The notes under the pieces are model-generated. The model had not been told where the DNA came from. It did no database searches and saw only the letters and a program-made list of their open reading frames with translations. Shown here in pieces: positions 2,546 through 33,243 of a stretch of DNA of 33,784 bases. Where the stretch lies: positions 268,231 through 302,014 of the forward strand of contig NW_003107099.1 in the NCBI RefSeq assembly GCF_000003605.2. The letters are read 5' to 3'. Made by a program: the position numbers and the translations under genes. Each line of letters opens with the position of its first letter. The stretch's first letter is position 1. This stretch comes from Saccoglossus kowalevskii (Eukaryota; Hemichordata; Enteropneusta; Harrimaniidae).

Positions 2546-2835
2546 CTACAGGGAAGCAAGTAAGCGAGGTTAGTCACAGAAACTACATTATTTTCTCTAT
2601 ACGCCGCGACAGTAATAGGAGCGATATTGCGATATCATAGCAACGCCCTTCATATTTATACTTCAAATGTGCTCTATTTTTTATGGTTCTCGTTGATGAG
2701 ATGGAGTTCAGAGTTTACTGGTGAATATCTCAATACATTCATTTGACTCTAACAACGGGTAGAGACCCCATCTACTCTCAACTGGAAAAAACAACAACAA
2801 CACTTAGCATCAGTGAAAATATTCAAGAAACTTAC

Positions 2836-7645: not shown

Positions 7646-7757
7646 AGTTGGATGTAAATCTGGTGAGATATATTTAAAATAATAAAGTAAGGATAAATTA
7701 GAGAGTGAAAAATCAATGATAAGTTAGTAGGTACCATAGTTTCAAATGTATACTTAC

Positions 7758-7917
7758 ACACACTGTGCGCTTGTCATGATATAGTGCTCATCAACGATAA
7801 CACCACTACATTTATGCAAACCCATAACGTCGATTCGGACATGCCCTGGCCAACTGCCAATGGAAGCGTCGGAACCACCAACAATCCTCCGTCGCGGTAA
7901 TGTTCTTGTGCCACATT
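7758..7917 (-). CDS. Gene B SPH2 exon a: His57 replaced by Gln
   Basis: Acceptor CCCGCAG, donor GTAAGT, 160 nt, phase 1 in and 2 out. Motifs: ECGTRTLPRRR|IVGGSD (activation site intact and unusually basic), GSWPGHV, HKCSGVIVDEHY, MTSAQC. The TAAHC His is Gln. No frame lesion. The donor lies only about 110 bp from the end of the 35-bp minisatellite that fills the next intron. Confidence 0.87.
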
Positions 7918-8486
7918 CTGCGGGCCCCGAAAAATTGATTAAAGACTTTATATGTACAATAACGTCCAGGTCTTGACTGTGTTCAAAACATTCGTTTAAT
8001 TGCCGTAAACTCACAATGTCATGTCTATGTCTTTATGTAGATCGTAAGCATCGCTATGTTTGCATTCATATAAGCAAATTATAATAGCTACGTATGCATT
8101 TAAGTGTAGCAACGCTTACAGCAACGTTTATTCATATGTAGGTTGTAAACAAACAGCAAGATAGAGTTCTTCTACAGCAATTGAAAAACGTTGGCCAAGG
8201 GAGGAACCAAAAATCTATCATACCAGGTACAACGCTTGAGCTGTCGAAAATTTGGTCGGTCCATTAATGTAAATGCTTATGTAAATTAATTACATGTATT
8301 CAGGCAAGTATTTGCACAACAACCATCTTTTTCGCAAAGACTTCGTGATATACTAGTAATCGGTAGTTGTACGCTTTGTTTTGTGTTTAAGCCTATTTTA
8401 TTTACAACTGCAAAGCCACTCCAAACCGTGCAATTATCAGCTTGTCTTGTACACTGTGTGTACATACAAACATACATGTGACTCGC
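7918..8486. other. Intron between SPH1 and SPH2 of gene B
   Basis: About 570 bp linking the phase-1 end of SPH1 exon d to SPH2 exon a. No other feature seen. If the GC donor at 8481-8486 is unused, the frame reads on after the TGA to 8286. Confidence 0.5.
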
Positions 8487-8631
8487 CTTTTCTTATTGTG
8501 TCCTGTATCCAGTCACTTGAAGACGTTATGCGTGCATACAACATCGGTTCTTCGCAGTTAGTCACGTGACCACCGATTCCGGCGAGGTATCATCTGTCAT
8601 TACGTATCCGGCACACCAAAGGGCCTGTAAT
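8487..8631 (-). pseudogene. Gene B SPH1 exon d: Ser195 loop deleted, TGA at conserved Trp
   Basis: Acceptor ACGCAG, then ITGPLVC in place of GDSGGPLVC, so the Gly-Asp-Ser of the active-site loop is gone. Twelve codons in, TGA (8590-8592) replaces the Trp of the WYLAGI motif present in all three sister domains; after it the frame continues YLAGIGGHVTNC, LYARITSSSDW. The phase-1 end is followed by GCGAGT, a possible GC-type donor, and the next acceptor at 7918 is phase-compatible. Confidence 0.8.
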
Positions 8632-8709
8632 CTGCGTATGTTAATAATAATTGTATGTAATGCTAGAAATACATTTCCAAGACACCTGAACAAACATCAC
8701 TTCACTCAC

Positions 8710-8849
8710 TTGACAGGTATTGTTGTCACCACCAGTTTGCAAGGCACACATGTTTGATTTGAATATCTCTCTCCCGTATGTATTATTACATGCGTCATCA
8801 TTGATCGTCTCAACCATGGTTTCCAGGGTGACAACCGAGTAGCCAGAAT
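8710..8849 (-). pseudogene. Gene B SPH1 exon c: Cys168-Cys182 region
   Basis: Acceptor TTTTCCACAG, donor GTGAGT after CAA, 140 nt, phase 1 in and 0 out, as in gene A. It reads SGYSVVTLETM, DDACNNTYGRE (Cys168), SNMCALQTGG (Cys182), NNTCQ (Cys191). Residue 189 is Asn. This exon itself has no lesion. The following intron is only 78 bp. Confidence 0.83.
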
Positions 8850-9041
8850 CTGTGGAAAACCAAAACAAATTCGTACTGAATTGTGTAACGTGAATGCAGC
8901 TTATAGTAAGTTGTATACGTGGTTTAACTATGATATACTAAATTACAATGATTAAAATGTATTATTATTACAAAAAACGATGAACACGGCGTCAAAACTA
9001 ACCCGTGTACGCCACTAAGCTAGTTGTAACTGTATACTCAC

Positions 9042-9305
9042 CACTCGATAGCGTCGGGTCCACCCTGTGACCACACAAGCTTTGCCGACCGGATCAAAAC
9101 CATTGTTCAGCGGTGGAAGACATATTGGACGGACATAGTTAGTATATGGGATTGGCGAGTCCACGTACAGGATCGCAAAATTCCATTGTAAGGTTGTTGC
9201 ATCGTACAACGGGTGAACTGCTATATACCGGGCAGCGGAGGCGTATTCCTCAGGTTCCGACAGAGATGACATGCCCATGCTAATTTCAAATGTATTCGAG
9301 TGTAG
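9042..9305 (-). pseudogene. Gene B SPH1 exon b: Asp102 replaced by Asn, frame broken
   Basis: The frame reads EISMGMSSLSE, VHPLYDATTLQWNFAILY (Asp102 position is Asn), VRPICLPPLNNG, GKACVVTGW. The splice sites that bound it (CACAG before 9305, GTGAGT after 9042) leave 264 nt, divisible by three. The three sister exons are 290, 299 and 305 nt, all leaving remainder 2. Joined by canonical sites to exon a, the frame shifts and soon meets a stop. A weaker GTGTAA donor in exon a would avoid the first shift but not the second. This looks like a net indel in a decaying gene. Confidence 0.8.
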
Positions 9306-9551
9306 CTGTGTACCAACAAACACAATAAAATCAAGCTGCTGGCGAACTGTGGCCAACACGATGCTTATACGGTCATTGAAACGTATCATATTGATAACCT
9401 TTTCGCAAAATCGATACATGCACTGGTACTGCGACAGAGCATCGTATATATTTAACAAGACAGGGAAATAACAGTATTTCTTTTTATATACAAAACACAA
9501 CATTGGTTACAGGTATAACCAACACCCCAATGGTGAACACAATTTACTTAC

Positions 9552-9708
9552 ACGCATTGTGCATTTTTCAAGATCCAGTGCTCTTCAATGACGACACCAT
9601 TACATGAATGGTTCCCGGCAACTTGTAACGACGCTAGCCAGGGCCATTTTCCTGAAAACATGTCCGAACCGCTGTCCGTTGAGGCGACGGACGGGCGAGT
9701 TCCGCATC
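9552..9708 (-). pseudogene. Gene B SPH1 exon a: His57 replaced by Gln, activation site lost
   Basis: Acceptor TTAATAG after a T-run, donor GTAAGT, 157 nt, phase 1 in and 2 out as in gene A. It reads GCGTRPSVAS, GKWPWLAS, GNHSCNGVVIEEHW, KNAQC. His57 is Gln. The R-IVGG activation motif is replaced by an acidic/Ser stretch (STDSGSD), so this domain could not be converted from zymogen form even in principle. It is closest to gene A exon 5 (GNHTCSG, WIL). Confidence 0.85.
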
Positions 9709-10756
9709 CTATTAAAAAAATCATTGTACTGACATCAAACATGTATAGTCGTACCATACATTGCAAAGGTGCGTTATTGACGAAATAAAGTCAATCAGAT
9801 GACAAAAAGTTTACACAAAGCCCCCCTTACTAGATAGCACATACGGACTGTGGTTCATGGCACCAAAATAAGCAGCTTCAGTGAGAATCAGCCTGTGAGA
9901 ATTTGCACGTTATTTACGGAAGTTTAACAACATATCCACGAGTTCGCAGATAAAACGTTTTTTTTGTCCACACATTTCGAACGTCCACACGTAATCACGA
10001 ATGTTTCTGACAGACCTACGGAGTGTCACATAATTGTATATAGTAAGCAAATTTTAAATACATTTCATAATTTGATATCGCATATAACAATGATTTATTG
10101 CAAACAGATATTGTTATGGTCGTGCTATACAGACGTTAGGGCGCATGCGTGTTTGAGTGATTCGGCATTTTGTGTGCGAGCATATAGATATGTTAAGAGA
10201 TGTACTAATATAGAATATCAATCAAGCACGGTACAACTCATCAATAAAGCTTCATATATTTAAAGTGCCACAATTTCATTTTAAATTGTTTGTCGTTTTT
10301 CCACATAGAAAGTAGTTTTATGTATTGCCACAACATCAGCTTTTATTGTTTGTTTGTTGGTCTGTTTATTTATGTATTGTTTAATACGGACACGGACTCG
10401 AATGGTTTGAAGTAAATATTTCCGCGCCCCACACCAGACTATTTTTTATTACTATTCATTACGAAGCCGGTCTTGACTTTTCAGATTAACTTAGTAGGTG
10501 GAAATTGAATATTTCATAAGACAGTGGTTAAGTCAGATTAGGATGCATAGGTCATCTGTGTAACAACAATGGTCACATATTGTCATACCAACAGTGTAAA
10601 AATAAATATAAAATCAAAACAGACTTTTAACTAGTGTTGCATGCAATTCCAAGACCTTGGAAGATAAAGAGTTGCTGGCAGATAATGCATGTGAACATGT
10701 ACAAAGTACCTCTGATCATAATTTCATAGGAAAAACACGCGATTTTTATATTTTAT
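9709..10756. other. Gene B interval between SPH1 and the LINE fragment
   Basis: The C-terminal lectin exon of gene B would be expected in this stretch. I could not find a convincing copy of FLCE with splice sites. The 99-codon frame at 9964-10263 on the plus strand has no recognised motif. Confidence 0.4.
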
Positions 10757-10775
10757 TTGGCCACAAGTATCACAC
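10757..10775 (+). repeat. Solitary unit of the 35-bp minisatellite
   Basis: A stretch reading TTGGCCACAAGTATCACA matches the core of the array that ends 3.1 kb away at 7645. It directly abuts the LINE fragment that starts near 10779. One unit only. Confidence 0.7.
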
Positions 10776-10778
10776 AAT

Positions 10779-11229
10779 GGAATGATACAAGATACGCAAA
10801 TCGTTCAGATTGGGAAAAAATTGGAAACTATCATACAAATCGTCAATGAAAGAAAAAATGAGAAATTTCCTGTTTAACTTTTTACATCGCATTCTTGCCA
10901 CAAAATATTCCCTTCTCCAGGACAAAGATAAAATGATAATGAATGTACATATTGTAAACAAGAGGAGATAATAGAGCACCTTTATTGAGAATGCAAAATT
11001 ACATTTGGGGGGGGGTTATTGGCGGAATTTTAAAACTACAGAAAAAAAGTTTTACACTAACATCGGAGAATATATTCCCAGAGGAAGATACTCTATCGAA
11101 TCACCTCATTTTAATACTTGTTCTATATAAGTCACTATACGAATTTAACTAACATATTATATCAGAAATGTAAAGATGAAAATAAATGTTAAAGAAATCT
11201 TAAGCGAAAATAATTTTATTTTGAAGTGG
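10779..11229 (+). mobile_element. LINE ORF2 C-terminal fragment, degenerate
   Basis: Plus-strand frames with shifts read MRNFLFNFLHRILATKYSLL, then NECTYCKQEEIIEHLY-stop-EC, then a degraded tail ILILVLYKSLYEF. The C-x2-C ... EHL ... C pattern and the hydrophobic 'nFLHRILATN'-like segment are typical of the C-terminal region of many LINE ORF2 proteins. It is inserted antisense to gene B, between its CTLD exon and SPH1, about 50 bp from the CTLD open frame's stop. Confidence 0.75.
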
Positions 11230-11277
11230 GGCCCGCTGACTAGCTATCTGAACGACTAAAGTTCGCAATGATTTGTT

Positions 11278-11562
11278 TTATTGGCATTCACGTACTTGTT
11301 GTTTTGTTTGGATGTGTGTAAATTGTTGATGTAACTTGCCATCTGACCACCGTAGTCTACCTTCACGGCGTCGGTCGTTGAGTCCAATCCAAAAATCACC
11401 GGCAATGCCTGCATCTCTCAAAGTACTTTCATAGTCAGCATTTCTGGCGCGGGTGGATGGTTTGCCTAACATACCACCGTGAGACACACAGTATGCCAGG
11501 GCGTCCGGTCATGCCATCGTGTCGCCGACTACCAATATATCAAATTCAACTGCTTTGAAAAT
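11278..11562 (-). pseudogene. Gene B CTLD exon with in-frame TGA at a conserved Trp
   Basis: Clear paralogue of gene A exon 3: ILVVGDTMA, then TGA at 11509-11511, then PDALAYC, GGMLGKPST, FWIGLNDRRREG, LRWSDG. The TGA stands exactly where gene A has the Trp of LPWYDAQSYC, i.e. TGG to TGA. Two acceptors are possible: CGCAG before 11562 (phase 0, which would join exon 1 directly) or AAGCAG before 11549 (phase 1, like gene A). At the 3' end a GTACGT donor could end the exon at 11296; otherwise a stop falls at 11278, just after REC, which resembles the NDC core Cys. The rest of the lectin fold is missing. Confidence 0.75.
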
Positions 11563-12705
11563 CTGCGTACGACCTAGAATAGCGGAGTTCACAAATAACG
11601 TTAATATTCAATGTGATAATTGTTATGAATACAGTCTATTAAAACGAACTGTTAGTAAACGCATAATAGAAACTTCCTTTGCATTCAAACCCATCGCTGG
11701 AAAACAAGTAACAAATAGGTGTAAAATATTTTCTCTAATCAAAACGGCATCTTTCTGTTCTTGTTTAAAACAATACCATAATACTGAACAACATCCAACA
11801 AGGTGCGTGTACTCAATTCAAAGTTTATGTGAAATACAATTATAACGACATATCCGGCGCTGCTCTCGTTTCCTTGGTAACTTAAACTAGATAGTGAAAA
11901 ATGTAGTGAATAGTAGATATTTATTTTGAACACATCTCTAAATTGTTACCTCCGCTGTATATAGAACCAATGGTAGTGGGTAATCGTATGCTATTTTGAA
12001 AAGATTTGATAAAAGTGGACACTTTCAAATACGTTCATTTCGTGACGAAAACTACTGTAACAATTCTCTAATTTCAATGAATATTTGTTTTGATTTTTTT
12101 TTCTTTTTTTGAAAACGGTTAGCATATTTTCTTTAATATATTATTTGCATGTATCTTGGGTTGATCTTTCTCAGATATGTTAACTTCTTGAAAACAATTA
12201 GGCATGTGTACAAATATTTACACAACATATAAATTTCCTCGCTCTATAAAGTGACTATATCGATCTTAATGAATTGTGTGCTTGAAATGTTCAGCAAAAA
12301 ATATTGAAAACTGTTACGTTACCCAGCCATGTGAGCTTTGATCGATATTATACACCACACACCATATCACTTTTCGGGGACGTCAGGCTACAGTCATTTT
12401 TAGTTGTTTGGGGCAGTATTTTATACATTTCACTGCAGTCGAGAAGTGAATGGAAAATCGTCCACTAATACTCTTTTCAAGAACAGTACAGTCAGTGTTA
12501 GGGCAACGCTGTGTTAACATTATAAGATATTTATCAACTTATTACGATATATCGGAGCTCGTTTTTCGAGTATTATATCGTTATCACATTTTCGTGGGAA
12601 TATATACCAAAAGACCTAATTAGAATACTAGTATTAACGATTAAGCAACATGACGACAAATTACCAACAAGCACTTGTTTTAGAACAAGGGCACCGATCA
12701 TTTGT
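11563..12705. other. Gene B intron 1, nothing recognised
   Basis: AT-rich. I looked for a counterpart of the gene A microexon and did not find one that repairs phase. If the acceptor at 11563 is used, none is needed. Confidence 0.4.
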
Positions 12706-12714
12706 TTCTGAAGG

Positions 12715-12825
12715 TAGACCGATTGGTACCCTGTAATGAGGACACACGCTGATTGGTTCCCTGTAATGGGCAGGGACGCTGATTGGTTCGGTTCCCTATA
12801 ATGAGCAGGCACGCCGATTTGTGCA
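12715..12825. repeat. Short tandem repeat, three to four units of 31-36 bp
   Basis: Units start at GCTGATTGGTTCCCTGTAAT with variations (CCGATTGGTACCCTG, GCTGATTGGTTCGGTTCC). Each contains ATTGG, the inverted CCAAT pentamer. It lies in gene B intron 1, about 550 bp downstream of exon 1. Confidence 0.7.
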
Positions 12826-13287
12826 TTTACAACACTGATTACTATAATTTTGGTGTATATTATCACGGCTTTCTTTTGCCAACCGTCAACAGACGCAACA
12901 AAACCGGAGTTTTACAGCGATACAAATTTCAAATTTCAATACGTAATACGTATACGGATCGATTTCATGAATTATTCAAATATTCATCGGAAAGTTATTC
13001 AGATTATGTTGAACCCGTAAGACTAACATAAAATAAAACAGATTTGAAAGATGCCATGTCCTTAACTTATTATATAACAAAAATAGTACAACATTGATTA
13101 TGAGTTAAATGCGCATTATAACAAACTTCGTGCATCGCCACAGTATGCGAGATCTCGGTAATTAATTATTGAAGGTTAGCGACTCGATTAATATCTCCTG
13201 TATAAATAACATCGAATGCAATAATATTCGTATTCATATACCAAGATGGTGGACTTGAACTTCGCTAACAGCATCATTACTACCTAC

Positions 13288-13359
13288 CGCTGTTCCCTCA
13301 GCCCATGTAGAAAAACACAGCCATGTGGAGATGCATACAATGGCAGCAACTGAAAACAT
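13288..13359 (-). CDS. Gene B exon 1: signal peptide
   Basis: An ATG at 13359 opens MFSVAAIVCISTW followed by LCFSTWAEGTA, a hydrophobic core with small residues before a likely cleavage site (Trp-Ala-Glu). A donor GTAGGT follows 13288 in phase 0, the same phase as exon 1 of gene A. Reading past the donor the frame ends at 13234. It could instead belong to another gene, but strand, phase and position ahead of the CTLD copy fit gene B. Confidence 0.6.
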
Positions 13360-17924: not shown

Positions 17925-17930
17925 TTTATT
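17925..17930 (-). promoter_or_regulatory. AATAAA polyadenylation signal overlapping the gene A stop codon
   Basis: On the minus strand the end of the 158-codon open frame reads GAATAAAAC, so the stop TAA is contained in a canonical AATAAA. It supports 17926 as the 3' end of gene A. A single hexamer can occur by chance. Confidence 0.45.
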
Positions 17931-18401
17931 CTTCGTATTTGGCTTTACTGGCAAATAACGACTGCCGATCACAATCACTTTTGTAATCAATGCGAGTGGG
18001 GAGGGGGTCGTCGTGGTTTATTTTCGTTTTGATAAAGCTGTTCACAATAGTGAAACGTGTAATGCATTGAATGCCGTCCATAGCAGTATTATATCTTAAC
18101 ACAGTCAGGCAGTCACTGTTGTTACCAGATTCCATGGAGTCGTCTGGGAATGTCTGTTTTGTTAACGTCTCTTGTAATTGATCCATGTGTGTATTACGAG
18201 TTTCAATGCACAATGTTTTATGGTGTTCGTGTATTTTGATTGCACTCGGCTCGGTACACCCACTGTTAAATTGCACAGAAACTACACTGTATGCCTCATA
18301 GGAATATAAAGTAGAATAAGAGTAATTTACGACTTGGAAACCACCATGTGAACGAGTTATAAATTGATACGTTTTCAATTGATTACACGTTTGCTGAACA
18401 G
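17926..18401 (-). CDS. Gene A exon 13 (candidate): C-terminal six-Cys domain of unknown family
   Basis: From acceptor TCTGCCAG at 18402 there are 158 codons without a stop to TAA at 17926, far longer than expected by chance in DNA this AT-rich. The acceptor phase (1) matches exon 12, giving QAVQQTCNQL at the junction. The segment has six Cys (contexts QTCN, SGCT, TLCI, SDCL, IQCI, SDCD), an aromatic N-terminal part (YSYSTLYSYEAYS) and no hydrophobic anchor; six Cys suit a disulfide-bonded extracellular domain. I recognise no family. The TAA lies inside an AATAAA, so the 3'UTR would be extremely short. The pyrimidine tract before the acceptor is interrupted, and exon use needs transcript data. 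Confidence 0.5.
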
Positions 18402-21400
18402 CTGGCAGATTTTTTCATTCATAATACAACAAGAAAAACTAATTTGCATATGATTTCTTTGTTATTACTAATACAATATTTCACAAAATTCGCAATTGTA
18501 AATATTTCTAGAAATTACAACAAATTTCATTTTTAACACTATAAATGGTGGTCTGAATCAGATATACTTATTGAATCTTTTTACTTGTTCGCAGGAGATC
18601 CGTCAGTGGCCGTGGTCGGTATTACAATACACGAACGGTATTACAATACACAAGCAAACAGTGGAGTCTTTAAATACTCCTAAATACAAAAAAAATGTAC
18701 TTACTTCGCTCAACGCAGATACTCAAACGAATACCTTGCATAAATGTGCTTGACGGAAAATGCATTTAATCACGGGTGGATAATAAAAAAGGGGTATATG
18801 CACGTGACCCTAGTGTCGTGATATGCATAGAACATTTCTACTTACAACTTTCGCAGGGAGATTTGGATTATAACTATGTAAACCCTACTTTCAGCCAATA
18901 AACATTCCTTTGTGTTTAGTGCTGAGCTCTTGTTAAGTATAACAGCAAATATTCTGTTGGTATATTTTTCATCCAAATAGGAAGAGAATCCAGAGAGTAA
19001 ACAGCCAAAACCCATTTACGAGGAAAACGTGAAAACTCGATATTTCATGTAATATTAGGTTTTAAGTCCAGGAAATCACAATAAATGAACCCAAAATCAT
19101 GCGATAAAAACATACCTACGATTTTCCAGAATTCCATGTTAACACGTTGGCTTCTATATTGACATTGACTGCTTATTATATTGAATAGACATAGCTTGTG
19201 AGCCAACTGATAACAGACATTCAAAACGTGCACAGAATGGCCGAAACGCGCACGTTTCATGCGGATTATAAAAAGTGGAGTAAGCAGAAATTTTCATATG
19301 TGAACATAACGAGAAATGGTTTAGGGGTCGTTTCTGGTGGTTTTCCTAGGCCGAATAGAAAATCTGCAGATAGCATTGACTTTTTGAATAGAATAACATC
19401 TCCGAAGCATGCGTCGTTTATTTTTCGGCAATTGAATCTTTCCATAGCTTTAGATGAGCCACGACCATAATAATCAGATCGAAGTTCGAGTCGTCAAGAT
19501 TTATGATTTCCGGAACCCGTACATTGCGTGAACTAGCATCCCGAGATTTCAATGGAATCTGTACAACATGTCACCGTGCATTATACAGAAGTTTTGAGAT
19601 GAATCTGATTTTTCCCCTTTGTCTCTTCTCTTGATATTTCGAAATAATTACAAAACGTTTGTGTGTGGCTGGGACAGAATGAAAGTTTTAGAAAATAAAG
19701 TCTGTGCGCAAGTTTTTATAAGAAAGCACATTTAATAATGAGCAAAAACATACTAATTCCCCCCAGCATTTCGTCAAAAGGCGCTTGTAACACAAGCGTA
19801 AATATATTTAAATATATATATTTGTATATTGCTGAAAAATGCATCTGTATATCCGAATCCATTAAAGTAAATTATGGTCAGAAATATGAATTTAATGAAC
19901 TTGATTAGACATATGTGGCCTAGTCCAACATCCATGCTCTCGCATCCAATTCCGAACAGTGGCCATTTTAACCACCTGAAAACAAAGAGTAAACGTAGCA
20001 TTGTTAATAACATTCACCAAGCATTTCATAAATATTAAGAACGTGCATGACATATATGAAACTATTGGAATATTATTGTTTTGATGTTTTGTAGTGAGTG
20101 AACTTAATAATTTCTTATCATTTTTATTACTGCATTTCTTCACACTTGTGTGTTACTCTGGTTTTGCTTAACCTTTCCCCATTTTACCATAATTAGTATA
20201 TCTACCTTATATTGGGACGATGCACTATACTATAAATAAAATTATATTCAAGTTATTTTCTTTGGTGTTGTTTTTATTTGTTTATTTCTGTTCAGTCACT
20301 ATTCACTAAGTACTGTTCTGGCAGCTTGGCACAAAAACCCGACCACCTTAAAATAAGATACCTCATTCACTCGCAATCAGCCACCGTGAGAAGTCAGTAG
20401 AGCTCAGATAAAAATTAATTTGCGAGTAAATAAAACAGTAAATGAAAAAAAATAAAATAAAAAATCGAACAATAAAGACAAATGGTATGAAATCAATAAT
20501 TGTTTTGTGTGAGAACATCATTTTGACTGACAAAGATGTATTGAACACTAAAAATCATCAAATTTCCCGTACAATCTACGATTTTCCATACTGTTTTAGT
20601 AGGAGAGTGTTAAACAAAATGACAACCCATATCCGATCCACGTTATCCAACGTCAACAAAGCAAACACAGAAAAGCATTTACTCCTGCATTTGACAGAGA
20701 CGAGTTTTAAATTTGAAGTCTCGAATGTGTGTTGTTACCTTGTAAAGTTTGGTCGATCCAGGCACGTGTCGCTGTGACCCGGGTATAGACAGACGGCAAT
20801 GCGTTGCCACAGCTACCAGTAATCAGTGACGCTATGCCAGCCAGATACCACAATCCATCATTCTTCTGGCAAACTAATGAAGACCCCACATCTCCCTGTG
20901 AGAGAGACAACATTGTTAGGTTTGACGTTATCCATATTTGCATATATGTACTTTCAAAATCATAACCTGTCTCTAATTACAAATTACTAGGGCTCAAACG
21001 CAACATTTGCATGTGCAACTACGAATTTATTACAAATACGTCAACATTGACATTTGACATTGCGTGTAAAGATGGGGAAACGTTGAGCATTATTCATCGG
21101 CCACTGAATTTCCCCTGTTAGTTCACATATTAACAGGTGTATTAGAAAGTAAAAAAATAATTTCTGTTAAACTCTAAATGCACTCTTAATTTTAAGCCCG
21201 ATTTTGATAATTAATCGCGATACAACAATATATTTGAATTCATTTTAATTACAGCCTGAGCGTAATGAAAGAGCGATTATTGAAACAACTACTTTATTCA
21301 GAGGGAGAGCATAAAAAAGAAACATCAGTGATATGCAATATTATAACAAGACCACGTTATTGTTATAACTTCTTCACGATAAATACCTAAGCTAAGAAAA

Positions 21401-24400
21401 AGTTCAGTATTTTGGAAATGGTATTTATAATATTATTAGATGACTTCACTTCAGTATAACAATGACACTTACCTCACATGGTCCAGTGACGACAACATTG
21501 TAGCTGGCGCAGATCTCTGCAATTGTCAGGCGTATTCCGAGCAGCGAATACAGAAATTTACATCTTATAGTGTCATAAATAATCGCATCCGCTTGCTGTA
21601 GCGTGTTGGAATATGGAGCTATGATTAAAAAAAGAAACGTAAGCAGTAGAACATCAGACTGAATAGGATCGCATTTGTAATAATACGGAATGCTACCGTA
21701 TAAGGCATAATTCATGGGTTTCCCGAAAGTTGTCGCCGATTTCACAGCTTTCTTGCATATACTTTAAACTCGACAAGTCTCACTGTTCTCAAAACCAGTA
21801 TTGTCGAAAATCATTTTTGTAGATTAGTATGCGATAGTTTTTTTGCATCTTAAGTCATCACTTTACTAAATTGCACGTACACCCAACTTCCTGGGTAACA
21901 ACTGCGTACCGTGGAATTTATGAAACGAATATTTTACTCATGTTTCCACTGGCTACGACAAACATTCGCTAATTCTCAGCTTAGTTGTGTTTAGTGCACA
22001 GTAATTACAAACGGGGGATTATTTTAGTGAAGACACCAATAACTAATAGCAGAATATTTCAGGTTTTGAACATGTTACCTTCGTAACTTTCAGATTTGTT
22101 TTAGTTACTCAAAATGCAGTTCATTATTTACAGACGCAGATATGCAGCGTTTTCCAAACCATGACCCTAGATTCATTCCATCGGAATTCATTGTGCAAAC
22201 AATATACAATGAAGGATCAGTAATTATACTACGTAATCGTTACTTACCATTATCATTCAATTTACCCCATCCAGTAATAACACATTCGGTGCCAGCTGCG
22301 AAGAAATCGTCGCTATCGGCATTCGGTAAACATACTCGGCTCGTGTAGAAGTTAAACGGTATTGGCGTCTTTGTATACAGTAGTCCCACATTCCAGCTGA
22401 TTTTATCCAGGCTAAATTCATTGTGAATGTGAACAGCATCTATGTTAGTCACGTATTTCTCGTACATAGTTACATATGCATGCTTTTTAACCATGCCAGC
22501 TATTACTTGGAATTGCTCTGGTGACGCCATTGTTTCGCCATCGTATCTAAACAAAACAAAAACGGTGACATGAATGTGAATATTCCATGCATTACGTCTT
22601 GTAATTTGCATTGTCGCCCACTGAGTGCCTCATTAGTCAAGGACATTTAATAAAATAGATTTCTTTTCAGGCGCAAAGGTGTTATGTGTATTAGGATTTT
22701 AAGTTGATTGTTTCTATTTGATTCATTTATTTCAGTAATTGCTGTGACATACGGAAACCAACAAAATCACTTAAAATGGATATACACTTACAAACACCGA
22801 GCAGCTGTCATGATCCAGTGATCATCGATAATGACACCACTACAGTTATGCGATCCTTCCACTGAGATGACGACTTCCCATGGCCATGAACCAAGGAGTG
22901 AATCTTGTCCTCCGACGATTCGATTCTCGACTACAGATTTCCTGCCACAGATATCAGGACCTGTGGATATAGACATCCAAAGACATAATATATCGTATGC
23001 GATAAACACATTGTGAAAGGAAAGTATAATAAGTATTAGAACATTAAATAAGCGAGACACGAGTGAGTGAACGCATTGTGATGTAATTACAGAAAGGTTA
23101 AAATCCAACAGCTTACACGCCTATAATAAGTTAAAATTTTGTTTTTCCTGCCAACATATTTTCTTTCCTCAGTGTGAAATTAATTAATTGGCAGCTTTTT
23201 GAAGTAGAATTTTGAACACTCGTTTTTTTTGGAATGAACACACAATTAGAACATTCCCATATCAAACTTGATGTAATCTTTCCAGTATTAATCAACAATA
23301 TATTTAATAAAACCACACTGAAATAAAGTCAAATTTTGTTAGCTCGAATAACTATATACGCCACTTTTTCAACATATTTTCACAGAGCAAAATTTGAATA
23401 TTTCAATTACAAATTCTATAAACATTTTTCTAGACAGGTTGAAATATTCTAACTTTCTAGGTTTTTGTGCTTTGGCAGCTGTTTTTTGGACCACAAAAAT
23501 GCCTAGACGGGGAAGCATTAGGTACCTGACCTAGTCATCAACACGTAAAATACCGCCGATTCATAGGTCTCCTTGATCAATTACGTGCAAAATTGAACCT
23601 ACATATTTGTGTGAGCTTTCTAGTTCTTAAATACACATTTTACGTCTACTTTTTCGAAGGTTTCTGCATCAAAAATATTGTTTATAATTTTACACCCCAA
23701 TTAAAAATTGGACACCCCCCCCAACACACACACACAAAGAACGCCTATTTGACGACTCACCAGTATGTATCGTCTGGTTTATCCATTCATTTGCAGCAGT
23801 TACGTTGAAATATGTAGCAGGGTTGTCGCAGTCTGGCCTCGAATTGAATAATCCAGCTACGTACCATCTAGAATCGTCCATGTAGCATACCAAAGGTCCA
23901 CCACCGTCTCCCTGTCAATTGTAAATCAGGCACATTCAATTATATAACATAACATATTCGTCTAAATGCAAATGGCCATTACACCCAGAAAAAAAAGTGT
24001 CTGTTACTCGTTTTTTTCCAGATACGTCGGCAGATACAAAAGTATGTCAGGTACGCATGTGGTACAGATGTATGTCAAAGTGGTAGCAAGTTGAAAACTT
24101 ATTTTGACATTTACTCGTCGTTCAGAGTCGATATTCGAGAAAATCACGTAGAACAAATTCAAAACGTGGCCGGAAAGTTCACTGGTGAAGCCATATTATA
24201 CAGAAAACACAATACCATTAAGAAATATCATTATGAATATTAACATTGTTAATTATAATGTCAGAGTTCTAAAATTAAATTAAATTATTAATTTAATAGA
24301 TTCTTGGGATGTTTTATTCCTACAGCAACACAGGCTGAATAATGATATATTATTTTCAAATTCTGATGCGTTGCACAGTAAAATGATATCAGTGGGTGCC

Positions 24401-27400
24401 AGGGTCATAGCTCACGTGGTGTACTGAGGGCAGGTCGCACGTGGGTCTAACTGATTAACGATAGTAAGAATAGAGTTATTGGTAATGAAATACCTAACAA
24501 TGACTAATTAAATGTTTATTCACCCACAGCTGGATCTGATATTGGTAAATTCAAGAGCATTCTTGGCATGTTTCCGGTCAATATTGTTGATTTAGATGTG
24601 TCACTAAAATGTGTTTATTTCTTTGAGATGGTGCGCGGATCGAGAACTCGTTTAAAAATAAGTTCATTCGTTGTATTGTAAGACAATTGAGAGTGAACTT
24701 CGTGCAAATTCTTCTGCTGAAAGTCTGCAAAAAATCCGAACTTCTAATGGGGAGACGTATGTAAACATAAACCATCAGCGACTTCAGCGGTTGGTAGATG
24801 TGGGAGATGTGGCAACTATGTAGCTTATGGCGACATAATGAGTTGACGTCACATCCACTATTCCAGCATTCAGTTCTTTTAAAACATGAAAACAGCGCCA
24901 CTCCCGGCAATTGCACCCACAAACTGTCTCGACATCCGTTTTAGGCTAAATCTAAATCTAATTATGCCATGGTTGCTGTGACAACAGTCACGTTTAAACA
25001 ACTAAAATATATATTGCCGGGTTGCTGTATTGAATATCTCACTGTTACAGGCCGATAATTGTTTAAAGCGGGAGAGTCGTCGTCTGCGCGTGCGTCAGAT
25101 GGCCATGAGACTTTGCGTTTTTAGCGCGTGTTGTTAATGTCGCTTGGGACTCAATTCCCGCGCGTGCGCAGGTGACGACCCTCCCGCTTTAAGTGAGAAC
25201 ATGACACGTTATTTCAATTTTTATCATTAGGGAAGTTTTAGATAATTATGAGCGGCCACATGATATTCATAATAATAGTGATAATATTGACAAATTACTG
25301 ACAGTGAACGTTTTACTCGCGGTACGGGGTTAAACGAGAGATTTATATCTTCGAGTTTATTTACAATGTATTGTATGGTTGTCACTTTTGTGACGACCAG
25401 ATTAAGCATCTTTCATATACTGAGAATTTGGCCTTTATTTCTCCTGCTTCGTATGGTTCATTTTTCGTTAATTACAGCAGCAGAGTTAACAATACCAGTC
25501 GAAGAGTTACATTTTTTTTGGACTAGCAGAACAACTTAATTTGTTATCGCATTTTTCTCTTATGAATTTTCTATTTTTTTAGTCTAAAATAAAGTTTAGT
25601 AATAATACTTAAACCATGTAAACAAGCAATCCATCAACTAATTGACTGGTCACTTATATGTTAGCTTTGGGTAGATAGTCGGGAAGTTCGTATAAAGTCA
25701 CTCATCCAGTAACACAACAAAGCAGTTAGATTAGCCACCCTGTTTTAAAATAGTGTTCCACGTTCGTATAAAGAAGTTCACAGTGCAGTCATATTTACTT
25801 GACAAGTGTCGTTGCTTATGCTTGACTCGATGGCACATAGTTCGGAATCTGATATAGTAATATTACAATGTCCGTACTCTGTCGTTTCTGTTATCGCTTC
25901 CTGTAGTACGTCCACCTGTATTGTATCTACATTGGAAAAATTGTAATAAAATGGATTGTAATTAAACATACGGAAATCGAAATGTATATAACTTTATAAT
26001 ACACGAACAGTAAAATAAAACTGCGATCATACATATTTTGACTGCTTCGAAATTGAAAGTGAGATTGAAGTTGGCCAAAGCATGACCTAGCAACAGTTGA
26101 AGAAAATTGTCAAATATCTTTGTTGTATTGTTTTTTTTGGTTTTTGACTAAATGGCCAGTAATCAAACTAACTGCGTATGATCCATTCATAAATTCATAA
26201 CGAACGAGACGTGTCCGATATCACGCGGGCGATGTGTATATATGCACTTGAATTTAATAACTATAATCCTTACCGGTCGCCGACTTCTGAGCCCACCCAA
26301 CACTAACGCACTGCCGACCAATAGGATCAAAGAAATTGGCATCATCCAACGGCGGAAGACACACGGGTCGAACAAACTCTGTGTATTCTATTGGATTATG
26401 TATGTAAAGCAAGGCGATATCCCATGGTGAATCATAGTGGGAATGTGTTGCGATATAATCGACTGGCGAGACATGTTCGTGTATGGACGATTCTGATAGC
26501 GAGACTGTGCCCACGTGAACCTCATACATATCTGCACGTAGATATGTGTCCGCATTGGAAATGCTGTTAGGAATAATATTAACATCAAAGACTTACTACG
26601 AGTCTATCGAAATTCCGTTCTTTGCCACGTCACAACTGTGTCAGAGGCCAATGCATGATTGGTGTGAAGAAACACTAGTTAAAACATTAATTCAGATTAC
26701 AAATTGAAAGCTTTTTTTCCGAATCATTTTTCCTTGCACCGTACACGTTTTCATAGAAATACAAATCACATAGAAACACAAATTGTGTTAAATCACTTCT
26801 CACACTTCCAAGAGAACAGGACTGTCTCTGATTTGCTCTCCTGTTGAAAAGAAAATCGCAATAACATGCATTGTGATAATCTAATAGGGCAGCCAATCAG
26901 AATACTTGTACGTGATGCAGTCAATTTTAATAGCACAAAATACGCCTTCCCTTCATAATTACTCTTATCGTTTTTATTTCCAACTCAGAGTTGTCAAGTT
27001 GAGAAAGGATTAGGATTCTAAGTTGTCCATTATTAAAAAGGATCTTCCCAGAAAAACTATAGTAACTGTATAAAAAATACTCAGTATTAGAAGTCAGAAA
27101 CTACCGAGCTATTGTCATGAATTTGTTTTTGCGTATCTGTTAACCGACTTAATTAGTTGATTATTAGCTGAATTGCTGTGTTATGTCAGTCATCGTTTAG
27201 GCCTATTTGAAGTTTTGGACGGAACTTGGCTCAGTGATTTGAAACTAATTACGAGATAACCGTCGCTATTCTGACTACTCATTTTGACAGTTGGTATTCA
27301 TAGTTATTAATGTAGTGAACGACTAATCAAAAAATATGACGTATTCAGTACTTAGTGTGATTGGCTTTATGATTGAAGGTTACGCCCTAGAGTCTTTTTT

Positions 27401-30400
27401 CTGCTTTGTAATTGGTTAGAGTTTTGAAAATGAATAAAGTTGTTTTAGTTGGTCTTGGGGAGTACAGCAGAACAGACGCAGTCCTGGAGAGACTTGGGGC
27501 GAGCCTTCACACAGTCTAAAAGAGTCTTGGGTCAGCCTTGCGATAGTCTTGGGGATTTTTCCCCAGGGCGCCGTGTCTTATAGAGTGCTCGAAAGACCGA
27601 CTAAGACGGGAGCTGAAACGTATTTCGTTGTGTGTGTCTTATTTGACTGTAAAGCTTAACTGACTTCCCGATCCCGCACCTCAAGGGGACGAGATATAGA
27701 GACGAGACCCCCCTCCCCTGGCAAGTGTGGAGAACCCCCCAGAGAAGAATTTACCCTCTGATACTATTACAATTGTGCCTGTCTCCAGTTAAATATTCGA
27801 TTCCATTGTTAATACACAGTTGTTTTATCTAATCTAGACAAACTTGACATTCTTCCCAAAATTAAATTCAGATATTGTGTCAAACAAAATACACAACTAA
27901 TCATGGCAGAATTAACGACAATATTGCTGGTCATGAACACAGGGGCAACACTTTGGGTATTTTTATCGGTCCGCGGAAAGCCATTGATACCATCAACCAC
28001 ACCATCTTGTTGAACAAATCTGTATACTATGGTTTTCGATGTGCTTTTTTGAAATGAATTCAATCCCATTTAATATTTCGAAAATAATATGTTTATGTAA
28101 ATGTAAGTCTGTCGGATCGCCAACATATTTTATGCGGGATCCCACCGGGTTCTACCTTGGAACCAACTTAATTTGAACGCCTAAAGATAAGGAACTTTGT
28201 AAAGTTACTGATTGATAACATTGACATAAATAATTATATGATTTTTAAAACAACTCAAAGGCAGATTGGATATGTATTGCAGTCTATATATCTTAGTGTA
28301 ATTTAATATAGCTGTCTAACATGGAAAGAGCATACAAGTTCTTACATATGTATTCTAGTTGTTGAAACTTGACTGTCTGTTTCAACAACGCTAGATGGTG
28401 AAAAATGATATACAATTTCTGAGAGGTCCAATTATTCATAGGATGTAACAATACTGTAGCCGATGTGTACAAGTTTCGGTCTAGAAGTATAGCTTATTGA
28501 TGTGGAAATTACTTTTTCTTTGAACTAAATTTAAGATTTAAACCACATGATACATATCTAGTGTATACTTGCATGCACAGGGCAGAAGTGAGTATCCAAT
28601 ATTCGCCGATGATGGCGCCACTACATGTATGGTTACCGCCTCGTCTTACAGACACTTGCCATGGCCAGATTGTAGGCGAATCGATGGGTTCAGCTCCAAT
28701 TACTCTTTCAGAAACCAATGGACGAGTGCCACATTGTACTGGGCCTGTAGTTGAGATAAAAAAAGGAAATGAGATTAATTATTGGAGATCTCATCACACG
28801 ATTAAACACGATTCTCCAAAGCGCAACATGAGAACATACATTGGATCATAAACCATATCCGAAATTTACGACTTGCAGGAAGATGTATAATTGCACTCTA
28901 TTATAGTCTGGCAGTCAATGGCAGGATCTAAATGGCACGAACTAGGACGAGTTTCAGGGTCGAGCCATTATTCCACCTTCAGGGCCCTAACTCCAAATCC
29001 TCAATTTCACATGCAAAGAACTTTGGCGTGATTGTGGCGTATTAATGCTGCCGGCATCGGCCAATGTTGACATGAGTCTATTAGTTTCAGTCAAAGTTTG
29101 GATAGTGTTATTTAAATACCTGTAATTTCACACAAGAACTTTCTTCGCCTGTAGCACTGGGTGAATTTCCACTGGAAGTCTACACCCCCTCGAACTGATC
29201 TGAAAGATATACACAATTACAGCAAAATACAATAAAGTAAAACAATTTATATAAAAGAATCAATTTCTTATTATGCAAACCAGAATGTTGTAACCAGTAT
29301 GCTATCAGATATCGAATAGACAGATTACACGACAGTGAAATAAGGAACTAGCTAATCTCATCAAATATCGTGCATGTGTACCAGGCCGATAAGGCGAGAA
29401 ATTCAATATGTTAATGATTTTTTTTACAGAATTTGCTGGTATCTTTGGTTTTATGAGGTAAATATTCAGGAAGCTCAACGCACATCGTGAATACACAGTC
29501 GTTTTTATCATTATTGTTGGAAATCTTCCCAGTGTGCCAATCGTCTTTGAATCTCGCCTTCGTGCCGTCCGTCCACCGCAGTAAGCCTTCTTTCTTGATG
29601 TCGTTCAGCCCTATCCAGTAGACACCTTCGATTCTGGCGCGTTTCAAAGCTTTCTCGTAGTACTTATTTAGACGTAGGGTTGACGGTTGGCCTAACCTTC
29701 CGCCTTGCATCTCACAATAGGACTGCGCGTCGTACCATGGCAGTTTGTAAGTTACAACCAAAATAATTAAGTCATCTGCGCTGAGAGTCTTTTCCCCTTG
29801 ACATAATAAAGATGAACGTATTAGTAAACAAATAGGTTATTATTTGCAACGATGTAATATCAGTGGTTAAGGAAACAGTATAGAAGTTTCAAAAAAGTGT
29901 TGGCCCACAATTTTCCGGGCAACACAGGGAAAATACCACATTTCATAATTATATTACTATCTGATCAGTTACCTGCAATGCTTCTTCTCATCCCCATCTA
30001 AAGTAAAAAAAAAAACAAGCAGATGTATTTAATATTTTTAATATAATTAACACACACGCACACACAAATGGAAAATGGTGATAATATCCAGGCATTGTTG
30101 TTTCGACTGTGTTGCAAAACAATGAACGGTGCCGCTTTGTATAGTATTAATGCTGACTGTCGTTTTCATACAGTTGTCAGTACACAATTAATGACAACAT
30201 ATTGATACACGGATTTCAGTAAATTTCTCAGTCATTTAAAATTAAAGTACAGCATCTTTGACACAAAAATTCTGATTAATTCAAATAGAAATAGGTTTAG
30301 TTCAAATAATTGTAACACAGTTTGTCAGATTATTTAAGTGTCTCATCAGTATTGTTTGATAGTTTCTACAGAAATAAAACAATACATACAAGCTATCCCC

Positions 30401-31057
30401 GGCCACGTACTTTCCTTAGTTGACATGTTAAAGGGCAGTGGTCGTTGCATCACGCATGTGTGAGATATGGGTTTCATATAAACATAGATAGTGACTTTTG
30501 CGCAGACCTACGATGCAAACTGAAAGTTTACGAGTTACTTTGAAGATTAGAAGGTATCGAAAGAGTCGCCGGCGCTAATTGGTGCACGTTGCGCCCTGGT
30601 TAAAACTCGTACTCGTGATTTTCCTTGGAAAAATGCATTAGATTATGGGAAAATTGGTCATTATCATCACAAATTCTCCATGCACAGTTTACAACAGCAT
30701 ACATCGCGTTACGTAATATAAATACAGCCAGCTTTGTGTACAAGTACGTGTTGTTTGGGCCGTACCTGTTTATCACACAGCTGATGACACTGCCACTAAT
30801 TCCCGGTTGGCTCTTACACATGTACAGTTCTCAGTATCAAAAATGACATTATACAGCACAACAGATGAGTCTGAGTCGATAACAACTTGTTGTACAATCT
30901 TGACCACCCAATGAACATGACAACAGTCGGTTTCTCACAGCCTAACTGTGCTGCTAGTGTAATTACTCACCAGTGTGTCGTTCGAGCTGTTGTTGTTGCC
31001 CACAAACGCACCTAAACTCCCTGCAATGACGATGGTAGCGAGAACTACCGGAATCAT
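17926..31057 (-). CDS. Gene A: secreted CTLD-SPH-SPH protein (lectin fused to two pseudoproteases), 13-exon model
   Basis: Gene-level entry; exons are listed separately. The model joins 13 exons with compatible phases, giving 823 residues: signal peptide (1-29), linker (30-37), C-type lectin-like domain (about 38-161), first trypsin-fold domain (about 162-409), second trypsin-fold domain (about 409-665) and a C-terminal Cys-containing segment (666-823). What is seen: paired splice sites at every internal boundary, CTLD hallmarks (WIGL, four core Cys) and chymotrypsin-fold hallmarks (R-V/I-x-G activation site, WPW, CSG, LLY, GW, C191). Neither trypsin domain has the catalytic His or Ser, so protease activity is not expected. 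Likely role by family analogy: secreted recognition, adaptor or decoy protein in immunity or mucus. Function is inference. The last exon is the least certain part (a short alternative terminal exon exists at 19968-19975). Confidence 0.82.
18402..20738. other. Last intron of gene A (model)
   Basis: Contains the alternative terminal acceptor at 19976 but no other recognised exon. The 90-codon plus-strand frame 19198-19470 and the 111-codon frame 20442-20777 have no family motifs, and the latter overlaps a gene A exon. Confidence 0.4.
19968..19975 (-). CDS. Gene A alternative terminal exon (Gly-Gly-stop)
   Basis: A very good acceptor (pyrimidine-rich tract ending GTTTTCAG) sits at 19976. Joined in phase 1 to exon 12 it would add Gly-Gly and stop at once, giving a 667-residue protein ending just after SPH2. 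The acceptor is stronger than that of the 18401 exon, but only eight coding bases support it. An ATTAAA on the same strand near 19732 could serve 3'-end formation. It may be an alternative last exon, or a decoy site. Confidence 0.3.
20739..20895 (-). CDS. Gene A exon 12: SPH2 C-terminal part, Ser195 replaced by Val
   Basis: Acceptor CTCACAG, 157 nt, phase 0 in and 1 out, donor GTAACA. It opens GDVGSSLVCQ where active proteases have GDSGGPLVC: Ser195 is Val and Gly197-Pro198 are Ser-Ser. It continues GLWYLAGIASL, GSC (Cys220), SVYTRVTATRAWIDQTLQ, a good C-terminal trypsin helix. There is no stop before the donor, so at least one more exon follows. Confidence 0.87.
21473..21618 (-). CDS. Gene A exon 11: SPH2 Cys168-Cys182 region
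   Basis: Acceptor AATCATAG after a T-rich run, donor GTAAGT after GAG, 146 nt, phase 1 in and 0 out. It reads APYSNTLQQAD, IRCKF (Cys168), AEICASY (Cys182), VTGPCE (Cys191). Residue 189 is Gly, not Asp, so the trypsin pocket is not kept here. The fit on both ends (Gly-Asn-Ala junction upstream, GPCE|GDVG downstream) confirms the exon, though its sequence is the most divergent of this class. Confidence 0.85.
22248..22546 (-). CDS. Gene A exon 10: SPH2 middle part, Asp102 replaced by Asn
   Basis: Strong acceptor (a long T-rich tract ending TTTAG) and donor GTAAGT, 299 nt, phase 2 in and 1 out. It includes ISWNVGLLY at the Asp102 position (normally D-I/F-A-LL), so Asp102 is Asn. It also has SRVCLPNADSDDFF and GTECVITGWGKLND. 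With His57 and Ser195 also replaced, this domain has lost all three triad residues. Spacing is otherwise normal. Confidence 0.9.
22792..22960 (-). CDS. Gene A exon 9: SPH2 N-terminal part, His57 replaced by Arg
   Basis: Acceptor CCACAG, donor GTAAGT, 169 nt, phase 1 in and 2 out. Motifs in order: GPDICGRK (pro-region Cys), ENR|IVGGQ (intact trypsin-type activation site), GSWPWEVV, SHNCSGVIIDDHW, TAARC. The last motif is TAAHC in active enzymes, so His57 is Arg. The exon is nearly textbook otherwise. The closest relative in the window is the B-SPH2 first exon at 7758-7917 (VIVDEHY, IMTSAQC). Confidence 0.9.
22961..23760. other. Intron joining SPH1 to SPH2 in gene A
   Basis: 800 bp between phase-1 donor and phase-1 acceptor. 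No stop-plus-polyA arrangement, signal peptide exon or promoter motif was recognised here, which supports one transcript through both domains. Confidence 0.5.
23761..23911 (-). CDS. Gene A exon 8: SPH1 C-terminal part, Ser195 replaced by Gly
   Basis: Acceptor TTGACAG, 151 nt, phase 0 in and 1 out, donor GTGAGT. It begins GDGGGPLVC where active enzymes have GDSGGP, so Ser195 is Gly. The rest is well preserved: SRWYVAGL, Cys220 in RPDC, and the C-terminal helix NEWINQTI with an N-glycosylation sequon. The exon does not end in a stop; its donor and phase 1 end match the acceptor of the second module at 22960, giving HTGPDICG. That is the evidence that the two trypsin-fold domains belong to one transcript. 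Confidence 0.87.
24240..24600 (+). mobile_element. Possible LINE endonuclease-domain remnant
   Basis: Plus-strand frames, with shifts, read NINIVNYNVRVLK, then DFWDVLFLQQHRLN, later NDSKNRVIGNEI and NVYSPTAGSD. The order resembles the N-terminal half of LINE apurinic-type endonucleases (NxNxR, then D-I-hydrophobic-LQE-h-L, then S-R-I, then N-x-Y-P), with QQ where QE is normal. It is degenerate and lies in the intron before gene A exon 8. The call rests on spaced motifs only. Confidence 0.45.
25062..25192. mobile_element. Short MITE, 131 bp, TTAA-ended
   Basis: The ends are perfect over 12 bp (TTAAAGCGGGAG and CTCCCGCTTTAA) and continue as an imperfect inverted repeat through GTCGTC and CTGCGCGTGCG to about 30 bp. 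End sequence resembles the 290-bp family, but the interior is shorter and different, so it is probably a deletion derivative or sister family. It lies in the intron between gene A exons 7 and 8. Confidence 0.75.
25799..25926 (-). CDS. Gene A exon 7: SPH1 Cys168-Cys182 region
   Basis: Acceptor AATGTAG, donor GTAAAT after CAA, 128 nt, phase 1 in and 0 out. It reads QVDVLQEAI, then GHC (Cys168), ELCAIE (Cys182) and SNDTCQ, ending exactly before the active-site serine loop. The position equivalent to S1-pocket residue 189 is Asp, as in trypsin, so this domain keeps the trypsin-type pocket base although the catalytic serine is lost. Sequons NIT and NDT are present. Confidence 0.87.
26274..26563 (-). 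CDS. Gene A exon 6: SPH1 middle part, Asp102 retained
   Basis: Acceptor CTAACAG, donor GTAAGG, 290 nt, phase 2 in and 1 out. It encodes the first beta-barrel after His57 and the interdomain linker: VHVGTVSLSE, HSHYDSPWDIALLY with Asp102 retained, EFVRPVCLPP with the Cys that pairs with the pro-region Cys, and RQCVSVGW (Cys136 and the start of the second barrel). Length and motif spacing are normal for chymotrypsin-like proteins. Closest exon in the window is the B-SPH1 middle exon at 9042-9305 (VRPICLPP, FDPVG). Confidence 0.9.
26564..28572. other. Gene A intron between SPH1 exons a and b
   Basis: A 2-kb intron that starts from the GC-type donor after exon 5. Most is AT-rich with nothing recognised, apart from a GC-rich block at about 27460-27780. 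Confidence 0.5.
28573..28744 (-). CDS. Gene A exon 5: SPH1 N-terminal part, His57 replaced by Leu
   Basis: First exon of the first trypsin-fold module, phase 1 in and 2 out. It holds the pro-region Cys (PVQCGTR), an activation site SER|VIGAE, WPWQVSV, an N-glycosylation sequon at NHTCSG (Cys42) and TSALC, where active proteases have TAAHC. His57 is therefore Leu. The phase-correct 3' end is followed by GCAAGT, a GC-type donor; no GT donor keeps the phase, and the next exon's first base (C) completes an Ile codon. Acceptor CTACAG follows a pyrimidine-rich tract. Confidence 0.88.
29120..29199 (-). CDS. Gene A exon 4: C-type lectin-like domain, C-terminal part
   Basis: Acceptor CTTTCAG, donor GTATTT, 80 nt, phase 2 in and 1 out. 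The only frame that fits exon 3 reads DFQWKFTQC then RRRKFLCEIT. This is the standard end of a CTLD: Trp, third core Cys, basic run, then the FxCE motif with the fourth Cys. WND is replaced by QWKF, so the second Ca2+-binding motif is missing. The exon is too short to show as an open reading frame by itself. The final G joins GC of the next exon to make a Gly, and the chain runs directly into the first trypsin-fold domain. Confidence 0.85.
29484..29775 (-). CDS. Gene A exon 3: C-type lectin-like domain, main part
   Basis: Acceptor CGCAG at 29776-29780, donor GTGCGT after 29484, phase 1 in and 2 out. The translation carries the CTLD core: LPWYDAQSYC (helix 1 with the first core Cys), GGRLGQPST, the hallmark VYWIGLND, then LRWTDG and finally NDCVFT with the second core Cys. 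It is a short-form CTLD, lacking the extra N-terminal Cys pair. The carbohydrate/Ca2+ motifs EPN or QPD and WND are absent, so classical Ca2+-dependent sugar binding is not supported. Reading past the donor would hit a stop at 29411 and lose the C-terminal half of the fold; splicing to exon 4 restores a complete domain, which is why the donor is placed here. Confidence 0.85.
29973..29997 (-). CDS. Gene A exon 2: 25-nt microexon
   Basis: A T-rich tract ends in TTTAG just before 29997, and GTAACT follows 29973, leaving a 25-nt exon. Read from phase 0 it gives MGMRRSIA plus one base, and that single G completes the first Asp codon of the lectin exon. The exact phase repair (0 in, 1 out) is the reason for accepting so short an exon. 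It forms a short basic linker between signal peptide and lectin domain. A chance match is possible; RNA would decide. Confidence 0.62.
30428..30690 (+). mobile_element. MITE copy 3, right end decayed
   Basis: Begins TTAAAGGGCAGTGGTCGTTG and matches copy 1 through GCATGTG-TGAGATATGGGT, GACTTTTGCGCAGA, GGTATCGAAAGAGTCGCCGG and TGGGAAAATTGG. The right inverted repeat is largely lost after about 30688. It lies in intron 1 of gene A, in the same orientation as copy 1. Confidence 0.65.
30971..31057 (-). CDS. Gene A exon 1: signal peptide
   Basis: An ATG at 31057 opens 29 codons with a hydrophobic core (residues 2-19, rich in V, I, A, L, G), followed by an Asn/Ser-rich stretch NNNSSNDTL with N-glycosylation sequons. 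The exon ends in phase 0 at a good donor, GTGAGT. It reads as a signal peptide, although there is no basic N-terminal residue and an uncleaved anchor is possible. This start was chosen because it is the nearest ATG whose exon splices in frame to the lectin exons. No TATA box could be placed with confidence near it. Confidence 0.75.
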
Positions 31058-33240: not shown

Positions 33241-33243
33241 ATA

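Follow-up and report, generated by a model that had tools for sequence, protein, structure and literature searches.

The 33,784-nucleotide stretch of the acorn worm Saccoglossus kowalevskii genome analysed here (contig NW_003107099.1, positions 268,231 to 302,014; hereafter the window, on the contig we call C176) carries on its minus strand a gene, gene A, whose 12 exons from 31057 to 20707 join without a stop and, read on to the stop at 20707, give 682 amino acids. The predicted protein begins with a signal-like start and continues through a 25-nt microexon, a C-type lectin-like domain (CTLD, two exons) and two serine protease homolog domains, SPH1 and SPH2, of four exons each. The exons follow in window coordinates, together with a further exon proposed in an earlier, sequence-only reading of this DNA.

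Exon 1, 30971..31057, minus strand: signal-peptide-like start MIPVVLATIVIAGSLGAFVG..., phase 0 out
Exon 2, 29973..29997, minus strand: 25-nt microexon MGMRRSIA-G, phase 0 to 1
Exon 3, 29484..29796, minus strand: first part of the CTLD, WIGLND present, EPN/QPD absent, phase 1 to 2
Exon 4, 29120..29199, minus strand: second part of the CTLD, QWKFTQC...FLCEITG, phase 2 to 1
Exon 5, 28573..28744, minus strand: first SPH1 exon, R-VIGA, H57 to L, GC donor, phase 1 to 2
Exon 6, 26274..26563, minus strand: second SPH1 exon, D102 kept, phase 2 to 1
Exon 7, 25799..25926, minus strand: third SPH1 exon, phase 1 to 0
Exon 8, 23761..23911, minus strand: fourth SPH1 exon, GDGGGP, S195 to G, D194 kept, phase 0 to 1
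Exon 9, 22792..22960, minus strand: first SPH2 exon, R-IVGG kept, H57 to R, phase 1 to 2
Exon 10, 22248..22546, minus strand: second SPH2 exon, D102 to N, phase 2 to 1
Exon 11, 21473..21618, minus strand: third SPH2 exon, phase 1 to 0
Exon 12, 20707..20895, minus strand: last SPH2 exon, GDVGSS, S195 to V, in-exon stop, preferred gene end
Proposed last exon of the sequence-only reading (158 aa), 17926..18401, minus strand: open and in phase, coding status unsupported

Introns are of the GT-AG type in 10 of 11 cases, the other having the GC donor at exon 5. Exon 1 was called signal-like from its sequence by eye, and the microexon is the only candidate in its intron that passed the filters of our script. 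The joins between the CTLD and SPH1 (FLCEIT-GPVQCG) and between SPH1 and SPH2 (IHT-GPDICG) are open and in phase, which confirms the claim that the chain runs through CEIT-GPVQCG and HTGPDICG without a stop. Each protease module has the phases 1-2-1-0-1 and the CTLD 1-2-1. Both kinds of module therefore start and end in phase 1, and such symmetrical 1-1 modules can be duplicated without loss of frame; for the protease module, this symmetry would be a simple explanation of the two tandem protease domains.

A domain search of the joined translation, which the sequence-only reading had proposed, bears out its assignments. Pfam placed residues 55-166 in the CTLD superfamily (Lectin_C, PF00059; 1.6e-15, 58.1 bits against a cut-off of 22.6) and found two Trypsin (PF00089) stretches, with 9.3e-78 over the whole protein. 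In addition to the profile match, SPH1 and SPH2 both hold the cysteines of all five disulfides expected of the S1A chymotrypsin fold (42-58, 136-201, 168-182, 191-220 and 1-122). Residue numbers were assigned by alignment, with C1 read directly from the gene A translation. A search of PDB sequences returned S1 proteases; among the 60 of 603 matches listed, nearly all lay on the SPH2 half, and SPH1 was matched by one entry, a chain of enteropeptidase-1. The triad positions 57, 102 and 195 read L, D and G in SPH1 and R, N and V in SPH2, so neither domain has the residues of an active S1A peptidase. Both fall within the definition of a serine protease homolog as an S1 domain without one or more triad residues (PMC1761132). 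D194 and an activation site (R-V/I) are retained in both. At the base of the pocket SPH1 still has D189, where SPH2 has G. The genomic frame and phases agree with two S1 domains in one chain, the arrangement that defines a polyserase. We regard as well supported the prediction that gene A is one open multi-exon gene with a CTLD and two catalytically dead chymotrypsin-fold domains.

To place gene A among its relatives, we searched the genome (572 Mb in 4830 contigs). Of 480 candidates for PF00059, 150 were scored; for PF00089, scoring covered all 125 first-look candidates, so rare family members may be missed. At the sensitivity of these scans, trypsin exons adjoin CTLD exons on three contigs, C176, C1270 and C2174, and the order CTLD-SPH-SPH occurs in five genes: A and B on C176, G1 and G2 on C1270, and one on C2174. 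Copy B, which the sequence-only reading did not mention, lies in the window itself. Besides gene A, the loci read are as follows.

Copy B, window 2381..13359, minus strand: second, damaged CTLD-SPH-SPH gene in tandem with gene A
Parts of copy B: signal-like exon 13359-13288; CTLD ~11538-11338 and 10014-9940; SPH1 ~9712-8485; SPH2 7927-2381
G1, C1270, ~9.1-18.3 kb: open over 10 CTLD and SPH exons
G2, C1270, ~24.3-34.9 kb: CTLD-SPH-SPH, damaged
C2174 gene, 75.9-83 kb: CTLD-SPH-SPH, damaged
Relative X (locus L011), C1270, ~4.2-7.3 kb, minus strand: CTLD and one protease domain seen, far side incompletely read
G3: one protease domain seen

Copy B has a TGA in the CTLD at 11511-11509, a TGA in SPH1 at 8592-8590 and a frame break in the CTLD; the stop positions and the break were read by eye, and both stops are also visible in tblastn. 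Relative X keeps the His, Asp and Ser of the triad, but its reading frame is broken both in the CTLD and in the third exon of the protease. Among 20 further trypsin loci, a subset of the trypsin list, none had a significant match to a CTLD of this kind within 3-5 kb upstream; the best reached 8.5 bits (E 0.2, in L042), in a test whose positive controls were members used to build the profile. The stretches read on contigs C4 and C2182 gave no CTLD by tblastn.

Loss of catalytic residues extends across the five double genes. His57 is found in none of their ten protease domains, its place being taken by five different residues, and Ser195 is found in one (one other is gapped and one uncertainly aligned). 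D194 is present in eight, and the other two are gapped. It is hardly credible that the protein is still an enzyme through some unusual catalytic arrangement: D102 does persist in SPH1 of gene A, and D102 with S195 in SPH1 of G1, but gene A lacks H57 and S195 in both domains, and we rejected this explanation on the residue table of the five genes. The CTLD has likewise departed from its canonical form. It retains WIGLND and the four core cysteines. Sugar-binding C-type lectins have an EPN or QPD motif together with a WND motif, and gene A has neither: the EPN site reads KIS in gene A and TLS in G1, and the WND site reads W-K/A/S/T-F in all five copies aligned (G2 and X left out). Textbook calcium-dependent sugar binding by this domain appears unlikely, though it may bind ligands of another kind. 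Since the canonical calcium and sugar residues are absent from A, from G1 and from the readable parts of the other copies aligned, we prefer 'lectin-like' to 'lectin'; of the C-type lectin domain claimed in the sequence-only reading, the fold stands and the canonical site does not.

The paralogs also bear on whether two or three adjacent genes, encoding the CTLD, SPH1 and SPH2, have been wrongly chained together, which we consider very improbable. Separate signal peptides for the domains, which the sequence-only reading had held to be at odds with a single gene, are not seen before SPH2: its 800-nt upstream intron contains no signal-like exon, and the only in-frame ATG lies a few codons from the acceptor and gives no signal peptide. 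Before SPH1 there is one weak signal-like candidate exon with a poor donor, of a kind also present in two of six control protease-module introns, but no in-frame start. Moreover, the same domain order recurs at five loci, with the same phases in G1. We rejected mis-chaining on this recurrence and on the search of the introns for starts and signals. The claim of one gene with two dead protease domains is well backed by paralogs of the same order and by the intron phases.

The 3' end of the gene is another matter. The sequence-only reading had extended its chain of phase-compatible exons to 17926, and this chain stands from 31057 through SPH2, joins included, but not at its far boundary. The exon at 18401-17926 has no Pfam match, and tblastn against the stretches fetched from five contigs gave nothing that corresponds to it; we dropped it. 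Its codon score of -0.107 is within the range of background open reading frames (ORFs), whereas ten gene A exons scored -0.054 to 0.324, on a scale that favours gene A exons because it was trained partly on the paralog G1. Nor is the length of this 162-codon ORF exceptional against 108,470 background bases, which hold two ORFs of at least 157 codons (162 and 157), although some background ORFs may be genuine genes. Copy B has an in-exon stop within the homologous last SPH2 exon. Reading on to the in-exon stop is the simpler course, and gene A most likely ends at 20707 rather than at 17926.

Gene A and G1 are the two open loci of the seven read, and the comparison between them gives reason to think that an inactive protein has been maintained. 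They share the same intron phases over ten domain exons, and Pfam also assigns the domains in G1. The sole microexon candidate in G1 is also 25 nt long and also dibasic (VITKKALS-G against MGMRRSIA-G in A); copy B has two microexon candidates, neither of 25 nt. Phase-0 signal-like exons were found by eye in G1 (9082-9138) as well as in copy B. Identity between the two proteins is highest in the CTLD (51%), followed by SPH2 (47%) and SPH1 (40%), and over 602 aligned codons the proportion of synonymous differences (pS) is 0.80, which is saturated, against a nonsynonymous proportion (pN) of 0.36. Because both genes are open and pN is far below a saturated pS, the comparison argues for selection on the inactive protein; paralogs so diverged would not be expected to remain in this state without constraint. 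G1 does differ in places: its last exon requires an acceptor that adds three codons and has no clear pyrimidine tract, and its SPH1 has lost C191 and C220, which belong to one disulfide, and has no cysteine aligned at position 168. The same comparison bears on the possibility that the family is dying and that gene A is a functionless pseudogene or nearly so. Damage at five of the seven loci and the GC donor in gene A would suit such a relic, but in both A and G1 the ten domain exons remain open although synonymous divergence is saturated and far exceeds the nonsynonymous, and we think this explanation unlikely.

We suggest that gene A may encode a secreted pseudoprotease adaptor or cofactor, switchable by cleavage, with a CTLD and two chymotrypsin-fold domains that do not cut, a proposal in which our confidence and our doubt are about equal. 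Retention of the activation site, D194 and the cysteines alongside loss of catalysis fits a protein that is cut, reshapes and binds, but does not itself cut. The protein would be secreted and held by its CTLD at a surface or on a partner. An upstream trypsin-like protease would cut at R-V/I, the new N-terminus could still pair with D194 and so switch the fold, and the cut halves would remain joined by the C1-C122 disulfide. The switched pseudoproteases might then bind proteases or substrates as a cofactor or scaffold. The activation site is R-I in four of the five SPH2 domains and R-V or K-V in two of the five SPH1 domains; SPH2 therefore looks the more activatable, and switching by cleavage is better supported for SPH2 than for SPH1.

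Several observations weigh against this proposal. The SPH1 activation site is lost in three of the five genes. Stops, frame breaks, truncation or insertion affect five of the seven loci (B, G2, G3, X and the C2174 gene). Part of the family is therefore in decay, and gene A could be a recent casualty that is still unbroken. The family comparison is confined to one genome. In the best tree, the SPH2 domains lie on one side of a branch with support of 62/88, which is not decisive; the SPH1 domains do not form one group (2 changes), and seven of the 11 inner branches are open, so the tree is weak for dating the protease duplication.

The next best reading is that of a decoy or dominant-negative inhibitor, in which the dead domains would compete with active proteases for their substrates, inhibitors or activators, with the CTLD serving only to position them. 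Dominant-negative binding has been proposed for the inactive domains of secreted polyserases (PMC11172050), and intact cysteine sets in both domains, together with D189 in SPH1, would be in keeping with such a role. However, a pure decoy has no need of an activation site and D194, both of which SPH2 keeps, and the pocket residue of SPH2 is G, unlike the D189 of SPH1; we consider the decoy doubtful. The broader suggestion in the sequence-only reading of a role as 'adaptor, cofactor or inhibitor decoy' is plausible.

The architecture appears to combine known kinds of protein, namely lectin-protease mosaics, polyserases and serine protease homologs. Factor C of horseshoe crabs has one active protease plus EGF, CCP and LCCL modules, none of which is among the five Pfam families listed for gene A (E up to 1); gene A, in contrast, has two inactive protease domains, their triad lost, directly behind one CTLD. 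What gene A would share with factor C, known from Limulus and Tachypleus (PMC10581989), is a C-type lectin-like domain and S1 protease sequence in one secreted chain. Tequila/SP22D-type mosaics and honey bee SP23 also join a C-type lectin domain to an S1 domain in one protein, but the mosaics, unlike gene A, include numerous further modules and only one protease domain, for which a specificity is predicted (PMC1761132). Polyserases 1, 2 and 3 have tandem S1 domains in one chain, some of them inactive; polyserase-2 and -3 are secreted, and all three human polyserases are proteolytically active (PMC1435904). Beetle polypeptidases contain SP and/or SPH domains (PMC11172050), so an all-inactive one remains conceivable. 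Gene A resembles both groups in encoding tandem S1 domains in one predicted chain and differs in its CTLD, of which the parts of these sources available to us make no mention (PMC1435904, PMC11172050). The RIVGG motif, missing in polyserase-3 and in domains 2-3 of polyserase-2, is kept in SPH2 of gene A (PMC1435904).

We use the insect SPH and lectin system as an analogy for mechanism and claim no homology of arrangement or membership. Insect SPH1 and SPH2 carry clip domains, and it is because no clip domain was found among the five families in the Pfam scan of gene A (E up to 1) that we speak only of analogy. In insects, SPH1 and SPH2 that proteases have processed raise phenoloxidase activity, and SPHs occur in immune complexes with C-type lectins (PMC5310873). 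The parts are the same, a lectin plus two inactive proteases, but the insect SPHs are separate proteins that assemble (PMC5310873), whereas in the predicted gene A protein all share one chain. Tentatively, this hemichordate gene family could encode a one-chain fusion of what insects assemble from separate parts, which selection maintains as a cofactor of some protease cascade, switched by cleavage and tethered through the CTLD; in that reading none of the three domains retains its textbook chemistry, having neither EPN/QPD-WND nor a triad.

No protein with the order CTLD-SPH-SPH was met in the literature searched, which covered few subscription journals, and the claim that the arrangement has no described precedent is uncontradicted within that literature; animal genome databases lay outside its scope. 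The words lectin, serine protease, trypsin and complement do not appear in a paper on acorn worm immunity (PMC10210618). Pseudoproteases are common, and their selective value is mostly unclear. Here, two paralogs that diverged long ago both have an open, inactive double-protease architecture, next to a damaged relative in which the catalytic residues are intact. The origin was probably a lectin-tagged active protease, followed by duplication of the symmetrical phase 1-1 module and loss of catalysis. The loci offer a natural series, leading from an enzyme with a lectin tag to a pseudoenzyme with one, for asking why dead protease domains persist, in a phylum near the base of the deuterostomes.

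Some further features were seen in passing. A 35-bp tandem repeat of ~62 copies (window 5526-7642) lies inside an SPH2 intron of copy B, and two further arrays, with 32-bp and 48-bp units, occupy 14914-15827 and 33243-33784. The last reaches the end of contig C176 and may be the reason why the contig stops there. On contig C4110, between ~4 and 37 kb, CTLD matches with near-identical scores recur every ~8 kb on both strands, a pattern that suggests a tandem lectin gene array or an assembly repeat.

Contig C4830 (17,037 bases, 15,500 of them read) is a mitochondrial genome, with COX1 identified by Pfam and the other genes named by eye. At COX1 sites compared with their usual residues, ATA stands at three of the four usually-Ile sites checked and ATG at the remaining one, and one Lys site has AAA. 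ATA encodes Ile in echinoderms and hemichordates (PMC2697986). The genes nd3, nd4L and nd4 lie together and nd5 adjoins cob; according to the part of the source available, nd5 and cob are adjacent in hemichordates and Xenoturbella, and nd4L and nd4 are non-adjacent in echinoderms (PMC2697986). Taken together, these mitochondrial features fit a hemichordate best. COX1 lies on one strand and the rest of the protein genes seen on the opposite one, and ND2 precedes ND1, in an arrangement that seems unusual for deuterostome gene order.

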